From a virus: a stretch of DNA of 26,886 nt. Location of the stretch: the IMG/VR virus record IMGVR_UViG_3300010149_000129, positions 1 to 26,886 of that record, one strand, 5' to 3'. This document shows, piece after piece, positions 7,601 through 26,886 of the stretch (position 1 is the first letter of the stretch; each line of letters starts with the position of its first letter). A program made the position numbers and the translations under genes. Under the pieces are notes generated by a model. The model was not told the origin of the DNA. It saw only the letters and a list, made by a program, of their open reading frames with translations, and searched no databases.

Positions 7601-8839
7601 ATGATTGATTTTGTAACTAACGGAAATCTCCGTATGGAGAAGATGTATATCCACCCTATATGGGCGGATGTACACTTACATCCTACACAGAACAAATTAT
7701 CATTACTTTATATTTATGACATTGAGAAGGGTGAGGAGCTTGTAGTGAACATCAATAATGTTGATTATCAAACCTCAGACTTAATTGACATATCTCTTAG
7801 TTACGAAGAAGCATATGTAATAGGGAAGAAATCGTTACTGAATCTGCTAAAACTCCCTAACTCCTACGATGCTGATTTGGTGAAGTATCTACAAGTCAAC
7901 GATACACTAAACAAAGAGCAGACTCCCACCCATTCTCATTTTTATAGAAAGTTTTATGACCTAAAATGGGTAAACAATCTTATACCCATATCCAAACACA
8001 TAGAATTCATCAGAAGAGTCAGAGATGAGTTCCTACTCTATTACGGAGGTGAGTCCACCGAAGGTGTGAAGAAATTTGACAATTTCTATATAGAGTCATT
8101 ACACAAAGTAGAAAGAGGGGGTATTTGGACAAAGGGTGGTATGGAGTGGACTGAGTATCACCCATACACTCTTACATCTCGCCCATCCAATAAGTTTGGT
8201 GGAGTGAACTATGCGGCTCTAAACAAAGACGATGGTAGTAGGGACAGATTTGTAAGTAGGTTCGAAGGGGGTAAGATGGTACAATTTGATTATGATGGGT
8301 ATCATCCACGCATCATCGGTAAGATGGTAGGACATCCCATTCGAACAGATGTATCTGCTCACCAAGCACTTGCCGATATGTATGGGGTGTCGTATGAAGA
8401 ATCAAAGGGTATAACATTTAGACAACTTTATGGTGGGGTACAATCTCAATACCTACACATACCAATGTTCAAAAAGGTATCACATATCATCGATAAGTTG
8501 TGGATGGAGTTCAATCGGAACGGATACATCGAAACTCCAATGGGTAGGAGGTTGTCGAAAAACAACCTAAAGGATATGAACGCAAACAAATTGTTCAATT
8601 ATCTTCTTCAAGCAACAGAAACAGAATTGAATATGAAGATACTATCCAAAGTGATGGAACACTTAGAGGATAAGAAATCAAAAATGGTGTTATACACATA
8701 TGATTCATATTTATTGGATATACATCCTGATGAAATTAATGTATTAAAGGATTTAAAGATACTTATAGAAGGGAACGACTTCCCTACTAAAATCGAAATA
8801 GGTGATAGATATTCTGATATGAAATCACTAAATGTATAG
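7601..8839 (+). CDS. Compact family A (Pol I-like) DNA polymerase, diverged
   Basis: A 412-residue protein. The C-terminal half follows the Pol I palm/fingers order. LTSRPSNKFGGVNYAALN (191-208) stands where Pol I has TGRLSS..PNLQNIP. QFDYDGYHPRI (228-238) is motif A, with D230. SKGITFRQLYGG (268-279) is motif B, with K269, Y277 and G278. GYIETPMGRRL (308-318) and LQATETELN (336-344) match GYVxTxxGRRR and PIQGSAADI. TYDSYLLD (366-373) is motif C, with D368. Both metal-binding aspartates appear kept, but the usual HDE of motif C has become YDS. At 412 residues there is no room for the full 5' nuclease and 3'-5' exonuclease of Pol I. The first 130 residues may be a decayed exonuclease or a new domain. 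A separate family B polymerase is encoded at 24523, so this enzyme is probably accessory: gap filling, repair, or no longer active. Confidence 0.75.
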   Translation: MIDFVTNGNLRMEKMYIHPIWADVHLHPTQNKLSLLYIYDIEKGEELVVNINNVDYQTSDLIDISLSYEEAYVIGKKSLLNLLKLPNSYDADLVKYLQVNDTLNKEQTPTHSHFYRKFYDLKWVNNLIPISKHIEFIRRVRDEFLLYYGGESTEGVKKFDNFYIESLHKVERGGIWTKGGMEWTEYHPYTLTSRPSNKFGGVNYAALNKDDGSRDRFVSRFEGGKMVQFDYDGYHPRIIGKMVGHPIRTDVSAHQALADMYGVSYEESKGITFRQLYGGVQSQYLHIPMFKKVSHIIDKLWMEFNRNGYIETPMGRRLSKNNLKDMNANKLFNYLLQATETELNMKILSKVMEHLEDKKSKMVLYTYDSYLLDIHPDEINVLKDLKILIEGNDFPTKIEIGDRYSDMKSLNV

Positions 8840-19819: not shown

Positions 19820-20023
19820 ATGGCTCTTAGAGGAGAATCACACCCTGCCCACAAACTTACGGAGCAGCAGGTGAACACTATTAGAAGACTATGGAACATT
19901 GGACATAGGAATATTAAGGTGTTGGCTAGGAACAATAAGGTGTCACCTGCTAATATCCGTAGGATTGTTCGTAATGAAACATGGACACATTTATTGATTG
20001 GTGAATTCGATAAATATCAGTAG
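19820..20023 (+). CDS. Small helix-turn-helix protein, homing-endonuclease-type HTH
   Basis: A 67-residue basic protein. I chose the ATG at 19820, 7 bases after the MazG stop; the frame is open further upstream only because it runs through mazG. The order RGESHPAHKLTEQQV, a first helix, then VLARNNKVSPANIRRIVRNETW is the short HTH module that usually accompanies phage HNH homing endonucleases (G-E-x-n-K-L-T...VS...I.RIV....W). No nuclease domain is attached. It could be a free-standing DNA-binding regulator or a remnant of a homing endonuclease. Its TAG overlaps the GTG of the next gene by one base, so it is coupled to the Mom-like pair and may regulate it. Confidence 0.65.
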   Translation: MALRGESHPAHKLTEQQVNTIRRLWNIGHRNIKVLARNNKVSPANIRRIVRNETWTHLLIGEFDKYQ

Positions 20024-20781
20024 TGAAGGTTGAAGGTAAGGAATATTGTGATACATCAAAGTTATCAGTACGGGGTGTATCCAAATCAGTTGCAAAAGAA
20101 ATCATAATCAATAACCACTATAGTGGGTTGTGGACAAAGGTATCTTACGCATTGGGTTTGTATATAGAAGATGACTCACATCAGTTCTTCAATACTTCAG
20201 AAAAGCTTATAGGTATTGCATGTTATGGTGACCCGATCGGGAGGTTAACAGGACAATCCATATCAGAAACTTTAGATAGAACTGAAGTGTTGGAGTTAGT
20301 CAGATTGTTCGTTTTCGATGGGTATGGTTCAAATATTGAAAGTTGGTTTTTGTCACAAACATTTGATTGGTTAAGAACAAATGTTCCAAAGGTAAAAGCA
20401 CTAATATCGTATTCAGACCCAAAGGAGGGGCACGCAGGAACAATCTACCAAGCAACAAATTGGATTTATCAGGGTAATAAACTCAGATTCAATGATAGTT
20501 GGAGTTTTAAGTTTGAAGAAGATGGGAGGTGGACACATGGTAAAACTATATTCCCACAATACAAAACAAACGACCCTAAGAAAATACAAGAACAGGTAAA
20601 TAAACCTTTTTGGATTCGTAAAGAACCTCGTAAACATCGATATGTTTACATTCTTCTAAAGGGGGGTGAACGGAGAAAGTTGCTGAAGAGTTTAAAACAC
20701 CCAACATTCCCATATCCAAAAGGAAATGATGACATTGAAATGGAAATACATAAATTAGAGCCAATTGAAAGTAGAGGGTAA
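20023..20781 (+). CDS. Mom-like DNA-modification protein (GNAT fold), copy 1
   Basis: A 252-residue protein with a GTG start overlapping the upstream stop (TAGTG). The N-terminal MKVEGKEYCD is shared with copy 2, which supports this start. Motifs: NNHYSG (30-35); LELVRLFVFDGYGSNIESWF (90-109), the acetyl-CoA-site-like strand and helix of GNAT proteins; and LISYSDPKEGHAGTIYQATN (127-146) followed by WIYQG. Known: phage Mu Mom, which modifies adenine in phage DNA and blocks restriction, is a diverged GNAT-family protein, and phage homologues carry a comparable S-x-x-D...GH.GT.YxAxNW.Y.G block. Inference: this protein modifies bases in phage DNA. The acyl donor and target base cannot be read from sequence. 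Its last 17 bases overlap copy 2. A basic C-terminus (KEPRKHRYVYILLKGGERR) may contact DNA. Confidence 0.66.
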   Translation: MKVEGKEYCDTSKLSVRGVSKSVAKEIIINNHYSGLWTKVSYALGLYIEDDSHQFFNTSEKLIGIACYGDPIGRLTGQSISETLDRTEVLELVRLFVFDGYGSNIESWFLSQTFDWLRTNVPKVKALISYSDPKEGHAGTIYQATNWIYQGNKLRFNDSWSFKFEEDGRWTHGKTIFPQYKTNDPKKIQEQVNKPFWIRKEPRKHRYVYILLKGGERRKLLKSLKHPTFPYPKGNDDIEMEIHKLEPIESRG

Positions 20782-21568
20782 AGAATATTGTGATGTAAGT
20801 AGAGTGAGTGTTTCACGAATAGCAAAGTCTATCGCTAAAGATATTATCATAAAGAAACACTATACTCACGCTTGGACTATGTGTAGATACGCATTGGGTA
20901 TTTACTATAAGACTGATGAAGTGGATGTGTTTGGTAATCAACACCAACTCATAGGATGTGCAATATACGGATTCCCTGTTGGAGCAAAGGCATCCACATC
21001 AGTATGTGAGGGTCTGAGTAAAGACAATATATTGGAGTTGACTCGTTTGTATGTTGATGATGGGTATGGTTCTAATATCGAATCAAACGCATTGTCCAAG
21101 ACATTTAAGTGGATTAAGGAAAACGATAAGAACATCAAAGTTCTACTATCATATGCAGACAATGGTCAAGAACATTTAGGAGGTATCTATCAGGCAACCA
21201 ATTGGATTTATCAAGGTTTGAATACTGATATCGCTCTAATGCCTAATTGGGGCATCTCATTATCTAAAGACCCATATCAATGGATCCATAGTAGAACTGT
21301 ATTCAACAATTGGGGGAGTGGTAATTTAGAACATCTAAAAAGAGAAATTGGTAAAGATGGATACAAAGAGTTTTGGAGAAGAGAAGAACCACCAAAACAT
21401 AGATACATCCAATTACTACCTCAGAATAAAAAAGAAAAAAAGGCTTTGATGAAAAGGTTGAAGCACGAAATCAAACCTTATCCTAAATCAGCAAGAGATT
21501 ACAATACGGATATTATCAGACACGATGCATATCCACCAGAAGAATCTAATGAGATAAATTTTTGGTAG
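20765..21568 (+). CDS. Mom-like DNA-modification protein (GNAT fold), copy 2
   Basis: A 267-residue paralogue of the preceding gene. The start is TTG at 20765, overlapping copy 1 in another frame by 17 bases; the resulting N-terminus MKVEGKEYCD matches copy 1 exactly and the two align without gaps to about residue 152. Shared blocks: HY (32-33), the identical DGYGSNIES (99-107), LLSYADNGQEHLGGIYQ (127-143) and ATNWIYQG (144-151), and later FW-R-EP-KHRY and LKH...PYPK. The segment between residues 152 and 190 and the GH/EH position (GHAGT against EHLGG) differ, as expected for paralogues with different substrate or site preference. DNA identity is moderate, so the duplication is old. It probably acts with copy 1 in one DNA-modification pathway. 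Confidence 0.65.
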   Translation: MKVEGKEYCDVSRVSVSRIAKSIAKDIIIKKHYTHAWTMCRYALGIYYKTDEVDVFGNQHQLIGCAIYGFPVGAKASTSVCEGLSKDNILELTRLYVDDGYGSNIESNALSKTFKWIKENDKNIKVLLSYADNGQEHLGGIYQATNWIYQGLNTDIALMPNWGISLSKDPYQWIHSRTVFNNWGSGNLEHLKREIGKDGYKEFWRREEPPKHRYIQLLPQNKKEKKALMKRLKHEIKPYPKSARDYNTDIIRHDAYPPEESNEINFW

Positions 21569-21600: not shown

Positions 21601-23388
21601 ATGAAATATATAAATAAAATGACTAAATTTGAAAAGTGGTTGAAAGAAAAGTATCTACTATGGACTTCAGATACCACAAAATACGAAGACCGAGTTGCTA
21701 ACTTTTCAATATCACCGAAAGAGTTACAATCTATTTGGTTGAACAAAGACGAGAGCCGCGAAGTACAACCTATTGCTGAAACTGATATTAAACCTATTAT
21801 AAAGAATAGTATATCAAATCGACCACCAAATTATAGTAACATAAGTAAACGAAAGCTAAAAATATCCTATTTGTTAGGTGCTATTTCATACATTCGTGAT
21901 TATAACCAACTTGCAGTATCCTTGATTATTAAAGAAAAGGGTAAGTTGAACTTTGACCACTTGTTAGCCAAAGATAGAGGTACATTTAACTTCTATATGA
22001 CCAAAATGGATAAAAAGCAAACTATTCCTTTTTGGAAGGATATTGTTAACTTAAACAATCAGTTTGAGAGCAATAATCGTATGAAGCAAATTTTGAGTCG
22101 TATTGAAGAACTTATAGGTAAGGGTGCCGAATTTAGCGTTAGAGAGGCTGTTCCAAGTTCGTTGTTAAATGAGTGGGAATCTGATGAAGAAATGATTTCT
22201 ATCCGAATGAAGTATGAAACATACAGAAATCATACTGGTGAGATGGATAGAATGAATAATAATCCAAATCCGTGGGTAGAGCATAACCACATTATGAACA
22301 ATACAATTGTCCCTATGATATATGAATATCCGAATGTGTATACAGAGGAAACTCTAAATAAGGCCTACGATAGGGTTTGTGAATACCCACTTTTTTCAGG
22401 TAGCCACAAACTTTGTATGACATCAATACCGAACTCTACTGTTGAGGAAAGTGAAGGTTTCATTCCATGGATGTTCCATTCCCTAACTTATGGTAAGTTA
22501 ACGCCACTTGAAATTGTGTCCACAATCGCTCGCCAATCTGAAACTAATACTCAAACAAAGTCCAAACACTACAAACTTGCGTTTCAATCCAAAGGTAAGT
22601 TCTTGGATGAGTTTACCACCTCATTGGAATTTATGAATACCATCGCAAACCACCCTATGGTATCATCGTGGGTAACAGAATACAATGATTATGTTGAAGC
22701 TAACTATCCAAACGCACGGAAGACTCCCACTAACATTAAAGACTTACGAATCTCAAAGTGGGATACATTTTTCACAGTTGTGGTTAGTATTAAAGATATT
22801 CAAACGACAACTAAACGAACTGGTAAGGAACGACTGAATGGTATCGTAGATAATTTCTTCAAATCAGCTATTGAGTGTTTATCTGATGTAAATTTGATGA
22901 AAGATTTGGCTGATACAAATGGTGGACTTACAACTCGTTTTGAACTATTTTGGGAAAAGGTTTCACTAAAAACGATAGATAAGTTAAATTTGGCTGAACA
23001 AGGTCAATTTGATGTAACGAACTTACAATGCATTTTGAAAATGAACTTGGTAGATTCAGGTATGTGGGGTAATAATATAGAAATTTATGACCGAAAATCG
23101 TCAACTGAATTTGAGTTGATTGATATTTCTGACTTCAAAAATTTACAAGAGGGTCACTTGATACCAACGGTTGCTATTACATATGGTAACATTGTGTTAC
23201 AACCAAAGGGTGATAACAAATTCAATAATAATCACCCTATCAAAAACATTGATAATTACATTGATGAGTATATGTCAGAGCTAAATGAATTCTTTGAAAA
23301 CTCATCAATTAGTCAAAACCCTCTGGCTGTCCTTCGTACAAAAACAGTGTTGGAGAGTTGGAAACAACAAAAAGAATATAAAGTGTGA
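21601..23388 (+). CDS. Large protein with C-terminal HNH-like motif, putative endonuclease
   Basis: A 595-residue soluble protein that I do not recognise over its first 500 residues, which are helical and of mixed charge with no visible ATPase or methylase motif. Near the C-terminus, IEIYDRKSS leads to QEGHLIP (H519), then GNIVLQPKGDNKF (N530, N539) and NNNHP (H545). The order GH-x-P, N-x-V-x-Q and N...H resembles an HNH/beta-beta-alpha-metal nuclease site as found in some restriction-like and phage endonucleases. The zinc-binding CxxC pairs are absent. Another in-frame ATG at 21619 is a possible start. It has its own promoter directly after the Mom-like pair and overlaps the next start (GTGTGA). 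Candidate roles: phage-encoded nuclease against unmodified DNA, or mobile endonuclease. Both are inference. Confidence 0.5.
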   Translation: MKYINKMTKFEKWLKEKYLLWTSDTTKYEDRVANFSISPKELQSIWLNKDESREVQPIAETDIKPIIKNSISNRPPNYSNISKRKLKISYLLGAISYIRDYNQLAVSLIIKEKGKLNFDHLLAKDRGTFNFYMTKMDKKQTIPFWKDIVNLNNQFESNNRMKQILSRIEELIGKGAEFSVREAVPSSLLNEWESDEEMISIRMKYETYRNHTGEMDRMNNNPNPWVEHNHIMNNTIVPMIYEYPNVYTEETLNKAYDRVCEYPLFSGSHKLCMTSIPNSTVEESEGFIPWMFHSLTYGKLTPLEIVSTIARQSETNTQTKSKHYKLAFQSKGKFLDEFTTSLEFMNTIANHPMVSSWVTEYNDYVEANYPNARKTPTNIKDLRISKWDTFFTVVVSIKDIQTTTKRTGKERLNGIVDNFFKSAIECLSDVNLMKDLADTNGGLTTRFELFWEKVSLKTIDKLNLAEQGQFDVTNLQCILKMNLVDSGMWGNNIEIYDRKSSTEFELIDISDFKNLQEGHLIPTVAITYGNIVLQPKGDNKFNNNHPIKNIDNYIDEYMSELNEFFENSSISQNPLAVLRTKTVLESWKQQKEYKV

Positions 23389-24506
23389 GAGTATTAGTAA
23401 TACCCAATTATACTAATTTTGGACAAGTAAAGGACATCAATAGGGATTCGTTCCTATTGGTGTTCAAGTCCTTTTTGGACAATACACAAATTGGTAAAGA
23501 ATGGGAATGGATTCTACCATATCCTGGCGGACACCATAACCATCCTGGTATTATTAATAGGTTTGAATATCCAAATGTTAGTTTACGGAAGATGGATATC
23601 ATTGAACCATTCCCACCTAAGATGCGGGTCGATTATCCATATAGGTTCTTTGATAAACTTATAGAGAAAGAAGAATCAAAATTCAATTTGATTTGGTCGC
23701 ATCTTCCTGAGTGGACTAACAATTATGTTATTACTAGAATCTATAACAAATTACAACCGATTATTGGGTACTGTCATTGGAGTGAAATACCTGATAATGG
23801 GGCAAGAACTGAGAATTCGTTTTGGAACAACCTTAGAGGTATCTTACAAATGAAAGTATGTGGTGTAAACTCAAACTATCAGAAAAGTGTTATTCTTGAA
23901 AACGCAGCTAAAGATTTCCAACCACATATCGTTGAAAAGTTAGATAAGATTATTCAACCTTGGTATTTAGGTTGTGATTCAGCGACTCCATCAAATGGGT
24001 ATGCTGAGAGAACAATTGTGTACAATCACAGAGAAGGTGTTTATACTGGTTCTAAATGGTTCTTTGAAACTATGGATAAACTATGGGAAGAAAGACAGGA
24101 TTTCAAAGTTTACACTACTTTGAAGGAAATGGATAAACCATACACTAAATACATCGGACACTCTGATAGAAAGGTGTATTTAAATCAGTTATCAAAAGCA
24201 CATTTTGGAGTGGGATGTTTTCAAGGTTATTCAGCTTGGAGTATGAGTGCTACTGATGGATTAAGTAGAGGTGTACCATATCTACTTCCAAATGATTTTT
24301 GTTATCCTGAAATGGTAGGTGAAGATTATCCACTACTATATAACACTAATGATGAGTTTAAAGAAATGGTAGTTAAGTTGTTAGATGGTGAAATTGAAAG
24401 ACCAGATGTAACAAATATAGCACAATCACTACTATGGGAAAGTCAATTAAAGAAATGGAATATCGAAAATAATTTCGTTAAGAATTGTAGGATATTTGAA
24501 GAATAA
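23385..24506 (+). CDS. GT-B fold glycosyltransferase (family 4-like)
   Basis: A 373-residue protein with a GTG start overlapping the previous stop by 4 bases. The N-terminal half begins with MRVLVIPNYT and contains FNLIWSHLPEW and a GYCHWSEI strand-loop. The C-terminal half has the GT-B donor-domain pattern: VYNHREGVYTGSKWFFE (212-228), FKVYTTL, YLNQLSKAHFGVGCFQGYSA (265-284), DGLSRGVPYLLPND (291-304) and the usual tail helix. The SRGVPYLLP turn is the G-x-P-V/Y-ll motif of GT1/GT4 enzymes. Known: T4 alpha- and beta-glucosyltransferases are GT-B proteins that glucosylate hydroxymethylcytosine, while other phage GTs act on host surface sugars. Placement beside the Mom-like genes and before the DNA polymerase favours DNA modification, by inference only. 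Confidence 0.7.
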   Translation: MRVLVIPNYTNFGQVKDINRDSFLLVFKSFLDNTQIGKEWEWILPYPGGHHNHPGIINRFEYPNVSLRKMDIIEPFPPKMRVDYPYRFFDKLIEKEESKFNLIWSHLPEWTNNYVITRIYNKLQPIIGYCHWSEIPDNGARTENSFWNNLRGILQMKVCGVNSNYQKSVILENAAKDFQPHIVEKLDKIIQPWYLGCDSATPSNGYAERTIVYNHREGVYTGSKWFFETMDKLWEERQDFKVYTTLKEMDKPYTKYIGHSDRKVYLNQLSKAHFGVGCFQGYSAWSMSATDGLSRGVPYLLPNDFCYPEMVGEDYPLLYNTNDEFKEMVVKLLDGEIERPDVTNIAQSLLWESQLKKWNIENNFVKNCRIFEE

Positions 24507-24522: not shown

Positions 24523-26886
24523 ATGTATCAAAATGTATATTGGCAGAAAGATGGTGGTATCATCCATTGTTGGGATGATGAGAAAGGTTACTTTACAAAG
24601 AAGTATCGCAACTACGCATATGTAAGAGATGGAAATGGTTCGTATGAATCAATCTATGGTGAGAGGTTAAAGAAGATTAACTATTGGAAAAAGGAAGACA
24701 ATCTGAAGTTGTACGAATCGGATGTTAATGAGGTAACTCGTTTTCTGATTGATGAGTATGGTGACTCAGATGAAATGTCAAAGGGGCATGTGATTATGAC
24801 TTTTGATATTGAGGTTGAGATGAACTCAGGTCTGCCAGATACCAATGAAGCTACAAATGAGATTACATCAATTGCATTCCACGACTCAGCAACAAATGAC
24901 TACTTTGTTTATGTTGTAAACGATGGTGATGAGATAAACAAAACCATCAAAGGAGCACAAGTCCGTTCGTTTAAAAACGAAGAGGGGATGTTGTCATCGT
25001 TTGTAAATAAGTGGGAAGAGATATGCCCCACTATCATAACTGGGTGGAACATTGATTTCTTTGATGTCACTTATCTGTATAACAGACTGAAAAGATTGTT
25101 TGGAACTTCAGTTGCTAATAGATTATCACCTATCAAAAAAGTACATTGGAATCAGTATCGTAGTAGATACATCATTGCAGGTGTATCCGCATTGGACTAT
25201 ATTGCATTGTTCAAAAACTTTACATATACAGAATATCCAAACTACCGATTAGACACAATCGCTCGGTTGGAATTGGGTAAGGGTAAGGTTGAGTACGATG
25301 GTAACTTAGACCAATTGTTCAGAGATGATTTAGAAAAGTTCATTGAGTACAACTTGGTGGATGTGGAGTTGGTAGTTGAGATGGATAAGAAACTTCAGTT
25401 CATTGATTTGGCTAGAGCAATCTGTCACGCTGGCCATGTATTCTATGAAGACTTTCTGTTCTCATCAAAATGGCTAGAGGGTGCTATTTTGACATTCCTA
25501 AGAAGGAGTGGTAGGGTTGCACCTGATAGACCTTTGAGAAGGAATAGGAAAGAAGATGGATCGGATGGTGAGGATAAGTTTACAGGCGCATATGTGAAAC
25601 AACCCAAACCAGGTCTTTATAAATGGGTCTATGATTTGGACTTAACATCCCTGTATCCATCAATTATTATGACCATCAACATTTCACCAGAAACAAAATT
25701 GGGTAAGGTTCAGGGTTATAATGCAGAATCCCATATGAAAGGTAAACTCAATGAGTATCTTATTACTGATACAAATGGTAAACAATACCCACCGATGGAC
25801 AGAGATAAGTTTATGGATTTCATCACTAAGATGAACTTTTCAGTTGCATCAAATGGTGTAATCTATACACAAGAAAAGGTTGGGGTGATACCTGAGATTC
25901 TGAATGTATGGTTTGATAAGAGGGTTGAGTACAAAGACTTAATGAAGAAGTATGGTAAGGAGGGAGATGACGAACTTTATAAGTTCTATTCTCAACGCCA
26001 ATTAGTACAGAAGATTATGTTGAACTCACTCTATGGTGTATTAGGACTACCTGCTTTCAGATTCTATGATGTTGACAATGCGGAGGCAGTTACACTTACA
26101 GGTCAAACTGTAATCAAAACTACTGAGATGATTGCTAACCAATACTATATTAAGAACATTGGTGAGGAAGCAGACTATAATGTATATACAGATACTGACT
26201 CAGTATTCTACGAAGCAGCACCATTGGTAAAAGCTAGGAATCCAAACATTGATGTTAATTCGGATGAACAGATGATTCCTGCAATCCTATCAGTAGCTAA
26301 AGAGGTACAAGACCACATCAATTTGGTGTACGACACTATGGCAAAAAAGATGTTCAATGTAGATTCGCATCGATTTGATATCAAACAAGAAACAATTGCT
26401 AAGGGTGGATTTTGGGTATCAAAGAAGAGATACGCACAATGGATTATTAACGACAACACCATAAATTGTGATAAGTTAGATGTTAAAGGATTAGATGTAA
26501 AACGAAGTTCATTCCCAACTTATTTCAAAGAAGTGATGTCAACAGTATTGATGGATATTCTGAAGGACGAACCCAAAGAGAACATTGATGATAAGATTTT
26601 GAACTACAAAGACGCTATGGCAGAACAACACTTTGTGGATATTGCAAAGAACTCAGCAGTCAAAGATATGAGTAAGTATGTGTTCAAAAAACAATCATTG
26701 GGTGAGTTTGTAAAAGGAACACCTGCTCATGTAAAAGCAGCGATTACATACAATCAGTTACTCAAATATTATGATGTACCATACAAATATGAACCAATGA
26801 AAGATGGTGATAAGATTAAGTGGGTGTATCTAAAGAGTAATCCATTAGGTTTGAGTTCGGTTGGATTGACTGGGTACAACGACCCA
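24523..26886 (+). CDS. 43: Family B DNA polymerase, gp43-like (3' truncated by window end)
   Basis: 788 codons are open to the last base without a stop, so the gene continues past the window (T4 gp43 is 898 residues). Exonuclease domain: ExoI TFDIEVE with D95 and E97; ExoII TGWNIDFFDVTYL; ExoIII YNLVDVEL. Polymerase domain: motif A YDLDLTSLYPSIIM with D371 and D373; motif B KIMLNSLYGVLG; motif C YTDTDS with D557 and D559. Both proofreading and synthesis residues look intact, so this is the main replicative polymerase. The start is the ATG at 24523, just 4 bases after a -7 box. There is no intein or visible frameshift in the part seen. It pairs functionally with the gp41-like helicase and gp32-like SSB upstream. 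Confidence 0.95.
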   Translation, partial: MYQNVYWQKDGGIIHCWDDEKGYFTKKYRNYAYVRDGNGSYESIYGERLKKINYWKKEDNLKLYESDVNEVTRFLIDEYGDSDEMSKGHVIMTFDIEVEMNSGLPDTNEATNEITSIAFHDSATNDYFVYVVNDGDEINKTIKGAQVRSFKNEEGMLSSFVNKWEEICPTIITGWNIDFFDVTYLYNRLKRLFGTSVANRLSPIKKVHWNQYRSRYIIAGVSALDYIALFKNFTYTEYPNYRLDTIARLELGKGKVEYDGNLDQLFRDDLEKFIEYNLVDVELVVEMDKKLQFIDLARAICHAGHVFYEDFLFSSKWLEGAILTFLRRSGRVAPDRPLRRNRKEDGSDGEDKFTGAYVKQPKPGLYKWVYDLDLTSLYPSIIMTINISPETKLGKVQGYNAESHMKGKLNEYLITDTNGKQYPPMDRDKFMDFITKMNFSVASNGVIYTQEKVGVIPEILNVWFDKRVEYKDLMKKYGKEGDDELYKFYSQRQLVQKIMLNSLYGVLGLPAFRFYDVDNAEAVTLTGQTVIKTTEMIANQYYIKNIGEEADYNVYTDTDSVFYEAAPLVKARNPNIDVNSDEQMIPAILSVAKEVQDHINLVYDTMAKKMFNVDSHRFDIKQETIAKGGFWVSKKRYAQWIINDNTINCDKLDVKGLDVKRSSFPTYFKEVMSTVLMDILKDEPKENIDDKILNYKDAMAEQHFVDIAKNSAVKDMSKYVFKKQSLGEFVKGTPAHVKAAITYNQLLKYYDVPYKYEPMKDGDKIKWVYLKSNPLGLSSVGLTGYNDP

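Follow-up and report, generated by a model that had tools for sequence, protein, structure and literature searches.

Two diverged Mom-family genes form a conserved tandem in a T4-like environmental phage and its relatives

Two diverged genes of the Mom DNA-modification family lie head to tail in the genome of an environmental phage, and dozens of related environmental phages retain both Moms with intact active sites. The window, i.e. the whole stretch of 26,886 nt that was analysed, covers positions 1 to 26,886 of the IMG/VR record IMGVR_UViG_3300010149_000129. A first-pass annotation had pointed to a tandem pair of paralogous proteins of 252 and 267 residues, and both open reading frames were found as described, on the plus strand: mom1 (copy 1; 20023–20781, 252 aa, GTG start) and mom2 (copy 2; 20765–21568, 267 aa, TTG start). 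The 3' end of mom1 and the start of mom2 share 17 nt, and the same 17-nt overlap is present in 38 loci. The proteins are identical at 110 of 250 positions (44%, E = 3e-74). They align without gaps over their first 151 residues; the gapless N-terminal stretch noticed earlier stands, but its length had been given as 152.

Phage Mu uses Mom to hide its DNA from bacterial restriction enzymes. The enzyme is known in the singular: a lone Mom with one type of chemistry and a single, loose preference for sequence. The Mu protein places a methylcarbamoyl group on the N6 atom of adenine (PMC8281217), a reaction described as acyl transfer to N6 (PMC7824862), and it (8bv8, PHROG 1384) has been classed as a dimer (PMC13232217). 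Both proteins of the pair match the Pfam profile of the family (PF25680 Mom, curated cut-off 27.1 bits) over practically its entire length: mom1 with an E-value of 1.6e-43 (149.2 bits, profile positions 2–202 of 202) and mom2 with 4.8e-45 (154.2 bits, positions 3–202 of 202). Since these scores are far over the cut-off and both proteins also match PHROG 1384, 'Mom-like DNA modification protein' (1e-49 for mom1, 9e-47 for mom2), a chance match is excluded. They are the sole Mom matches in the 26.9 kb record, and there is no fused nuclease, the Mom domain alone covering each of the two frames. An AlphaFold model was made for copy 1 alone (pLDDT 92.9). Mu Mom (8bv8) ranked first in a Foldseek search with this model (E = 1.8e-13), and the structural alignment (VIA) with 8bv8 had a Z-score of 21.0, with an rmsd of 3.5 over 183 residues and 26% identity, versus 12.0 for the best other GNAT protein. 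For mom2, the connection to 8bv8 was made by sequence (phmmer, E = 1.8e-5). The Mom/GNAT membership proposed for both proteins is thus borne out, by profiles placing both inside the Mom family and, for copy 1, by the suggested comparison of a predicted structure with Mu Mom.

Membership in a family does not fix the substrate, and one or both of these Mom-fold proteins could act on something other than DNA, as a protein or small-molecule acyltransferase. The GNAT fold is generic, and no assayed member of the mom1/mom2 subfamily was found in the literature searched; however, the match spans the whole Mom domain, the model is much closer to 8bv8 than to the next GNAT (see the Z-scores above) and all the invariant residues of the Mom family are present, which makes such a substrate most improbable.

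The active sites were compared on an alignment of 84 mom1 and 87 mom2 sequences, in which 55 columns have one and the same residue in both families, with conservation of 95% or more. H32, Y33, E91, R94, S107, Y142 and N146 are conserved in both, and five of them (H32, Y33, R94, S107 and Y142) align with H48, Y49, R101, S114 and Y149 of Mu Mom. The PDB title of 8bv8 reads 'inactive mutant S124A', S124 being the same serine in the annotated numbering; the counterparts of the other residues are catalytic in Mu Mom. Because the Mu Mom active-site residues, including the serine of the inactivating mutation, are kept in both copies, neither looks catalytically dead. The two families have different fixed residues at 14 sites (40, 41, 86, 109, 131, 158, 159, 162, 182, 185, 188, 198, 209 and 247, in copy 1 numbering). 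Some adjoin active-site residues in sequence: 40–41 come after the HY pair, 109 after S107, and 131 is beside D132; 158–162, 198 and 209 are further cases. The first-pass annotation had placed a difference between the copies at a GH/EH site. This was overstated: the residue before H137 does differ, but H137 itself is identical and the fixed family differences are elsewhere.

When IMG/VR was scanned with copy 1, mom1 and mom2 were found in the same order in 72 of 80 loci; in the remaining eight, the available sequence stops within or shortly behind mom1. The scan with copy 2, which has many contigs in common with the previous one, gave 66 of 80 loci with both genes (L171, where there is a third Mom, and 65 others). 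Among the full pairs there are 81 distinct mom1 sequences. The mom1 orthologues are about 60–98% identical to copy 1 and about 43% identical to copy 2; the mom2 orthologues show the opposite pattern. When whole contigs of up to 271 kb were searched with profiles, each long contig bearing the pair had exactly two Moms, and L171/G026 had three. Variable small genes are located between mom1 and mom2 in some loci; in L075 (5772–7125), the insertion consists of an ATP-grasp protein gene (RimK-like, by eye) and small ORFs. Among isolates, Mom genes are usually single, as had been remarked: tblastn with four Mom queries hit almost exactly one place per record (276 places in 276 records, 191 in 191, 326 in 326 and 290 in 289), although these four queries, even with 20 named records also searched by profile, may have missed a strongly diverged second Mom in the other records.

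In the maximum-likelihood tree, mom1 and mom2 form separate clades (support 100/100 and 99/93, respectively). A third clade, S, from contigs with one such Mom gene (100/97), groups weakly with mom2 (94/83). The pair may still stem from a simple local duplication: a topology that joins mom1 and mom2 as sisters was not rejected (AU p = 0.24). Both genes are under purifying selection, with median dN/dS values of 0.13 (mom1) and 0.14 (mom2), and their distances are correlated across loci (Mantel r = 0.51, reached by 0 of 500 shuffles). Because they fall in separate clades and are both under purifying selection, mom1 and mom2 are old and probably non-redundant paralogues. Conservation of two distinct, diverged copies fits distinct roles, and they probably do different jobs, not one job twice. 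Mere dosage, the two copies providing more of the same enzyme, would agree with their being in one operon with the same active-centre residues. Yet redundant copies are expected to be lost or homogenised, whereas the 44% identity, the separate clades, the 14 fixed differences and the purifying selection on both copies indicate long separate conservation; we therefore view redundancy as improbable.

The pair is preceded by a small gene (19820–20023, plus strand) for a 67-aa protein with weak matches to HTH_38 (E = 0.014) and phrog_517 (E = 1e-4). The last base of its stop codon is also the first of the mom1 start codon (TAGTG). This HTH gene is directly upstream of the pair in most loci, and its product is a candidate regulator of the two genes. 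After mom2 comes a 595-aa ORF (21601–23388, plus strand) to which no function is assigned; it has no Pfam or PHROG match above cut-off, an orthologue was recognised in some loci only, and it is probably a neighbour and not a member of the system. It is followed by a gene (23385–24506, plus strand) for a 373-aa glycosyltransferase of the GT-B fold, GT4-like (AlphaFold pLDDT 83.5), whose model matched GT4-type enzymes in Foldseek (7qsg, E = 9e-13; MshA; BshA). The glycosyltransferase gene lies between the mom pair and PolB in most loci and was unrecognised in L171–L174. It was considered as a member of the modification pathway and set aside: its matches are of the GT4 type, with no DNA glycosyltransferase recognised among them, and it is not recognised in all loci. 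The common gene order is NrdB-NrdA-thioredoxin-HTH-mom1-mom2-(ORF)-glycosyltransferase-PolB. The genes around the pair, which code for baseplate, UvsX, DnaB-type helicase, NrdB, NrdA, thioredoxin, MazG-like and family B DNA polymerase proteins, are those of a T4-like (PolB/UvsX/NrdAB) environmental phage. Judged by DNA polymerase, the closest isolate is Microcystis phage Mel-JY01 (50%, against 32% for the runner-up), in which no Mom gene was found. A nucleotide search of the phage collection gave zero matches, and PADLOC gave no defence-system match for the mom pair or its neighbours, apart from a weak hit to the MazG-like gene that stayed below the threshold. Besides the PolB gene at 24523, the window contains a 412-aa ORF (7601–8839) which matches a DNA polymerase PHROG over residues 304–409 only.

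The two copies could differ in their chemistry. One would make the Mu-type N6-(carbamoylmethyl)adenine and the other would add a different group, or would target a different base or one already carrying a modification, the result being a phage with two hypermodified bases. GNAT enzymes do differ in their donors (PMC8072286), and the fixed differences at 40–41, 109 and 131 adjoin the active site in sequence. In addition, the GT4-like glycosyltransferase is a conserved neighbour, and in cyanophage S-SSM6a a carbamoyltransferase gene (L288, from 3542) is situated about 1.5 kb behind an Enterococcus-phage-type Mom gene. However, all catalytic-type residues are the same in mom1 and mom2, and the glycosyltransferase, missing from the recognised genes of the pair-bearing L171–L174, resembles GT4 enzymes acting on small molecules or polysaccharides. 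Two chemistries are, in our opinion, rather unlikely. In Microbacterium phage Appa, a tRNA-Gly gene is found right behind mom (L094:2477–2551). The Mu modification contains a glycine-like unit, and a link of this tRNA with the donor is conceivable.

Mom genes were also encountered outside the tandem. In L104, L118 and L148, mom2 is present without mom1 between its usual neighbours, and in the first two the HTH gene immediately precedes mom2; L104 and L118 are short contigs (7 and 12.6 kb), so that copy 1 could sit elsewhere in those genomes. A single mom2-like gene was found on contigs of 70–304 kb from related phages (e.g. G044, G048 and G052). On contig G042, a mom1-type gene is about 41 kb away from a mom2-like gene, and in the marine MAG TMED198 the mom1-type protein is encoded on a contig different from that of two other Moms. 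Mom1-type genes were found only with a mom2-like Mom in the same virus or MAG/bin, while mom2-like genes without mom1 are common. Other combinations exist. L148 has an Enterococcus-phage-type Mom along with mom2, L171 has all three (mom1, mom2 and the Enterococcus-phage type), G056–G058 have a T-type and an Enterococcus-type Mom, and L181 has three Moms; sets of Moms are thus carried by several phage lineages. L181 is a second, independent Mom tandem: two very diverged Moms (181–939 and 935–1735) are arranged head to tail with overlapping ends, and the phage has a P12002L-type Mom besides. In G043 (C1:56699–57213, L254), a Mom gene broken by a TAA stop is a decaying extra copy.

These distributions bear on the proposal that mom1 and mom2 form a mixed dimer in which one copy tunes DNA recognition. 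The classification of Mu Mom as a dimer (PMC13232217), the overlap and co-divergence of the two genes, and the presence of mom1-type genes only where a mom2-like gene exists in the same virus or bin are all compatible with it. On the other hand, the mom2-only loci and the large contigs with a single mom2-like gene indicate that mom2-like proteins do not need mom1; the two genes are far apart in G042, and a purely structural partner would not need the full active site that both copies have. A heterodimer is accordingly an unlikely arrangement, and its obligate form, or an obligate pair, is disfavoured by L104, L118 and L148. A broader proposition is that DNA is hypermodified by two (in some phages three) different Moms, which would yield different modified bases or form a mixed dimer with a recognition that neither has alone; we hold this possible but on balance doubtful.

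The explanation that we favour, tentatively and at close to an even chance, is that both Moms modify adenine in the DNA of their own phage and differ in sequence preference. The operon behind the small HTH gene would encode two active Mom-type DNA-modification enzymes. Each of them, probably a homodimer like Mu Mom, would act at N6 of adenines in the DNA of its own phage, with a different sequence accepted around the target by each enzyme. Between them, they would reach a larger number of sites, or deal with a broader set of host restriction enzymes, than a lone Mom could. Mom2-like enzymes may form the base, and mom1-type enzymes an add-on, in a repertoire of partly independent specificities; the few relatives that have lost copy 1 and the other combinations of Moms would fit this picture. 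Activity, target base and sequence context are presumed here by analogy with Mu Mom. A different donor for one copy fits the data equally, and the constant association of mom1-type genes with a mom2-like gene is what a heterodimer would also predict.

Compared with Mu, the pair has in common the whole-domain sequence match, the fold and the active-site residues, but there are two diverged mom genes instead of one, and their place is among the clustered replication genes of a T4-like phage, whereas mom of Mu lies at the genome's right end. In both cases a small gene overlaps the mom start (com in Mu, the HTH gene here). This likeness is one of position only: profile searches found no Com match for the upstream gene, whose product is HTH-like and not a zinc-finger Com. 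Microbacterium phage BarnCat (PP978804) has a similar layout: a small HTH gene (L085:1747–1983), placed as com is in Mu, shares one base with the start of mom, and mom is followed by a gene for a DNA polymerase. BarnCat is, however, an unrelated phage with one mom, and its polymerase is DNA polymerase I instead of PolB. The closest isolate relative comes from Polaribacter phage P12002L (NC_028924), whose Mom shares about 42% identity with either copy, but this phage has a single mom, with an adjoining DNA methyltransferase gene, in a 49 kb genome. Mom-family modification is also known from jumbo phages, where the Mom domains are fused to restriction-type nucleases (PMC7824862), unlike the free-standing, tandem Moms described here.

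The literature searched, which left most subscription papers outside, described neither a phage carrying two Mom genes nor any characterised two-gene Mom system, in agreement with the first-pass annotation. The enzyme family is known, and it is the conserved two-gene Mom arrangement that appears to be new. Many environmental phages keep both paralogues, with complete active sites and with fixed differences in their surroundings, which shows that Mom has diversified in phages and that more than one version is maintained side by side. With 44% identity, one operon and 14 fixed differences, the pair offers a natural comparison for the basis of sequence preference or donor use by Mom. It also suggests a route by which phages may widen their protection against restriction.
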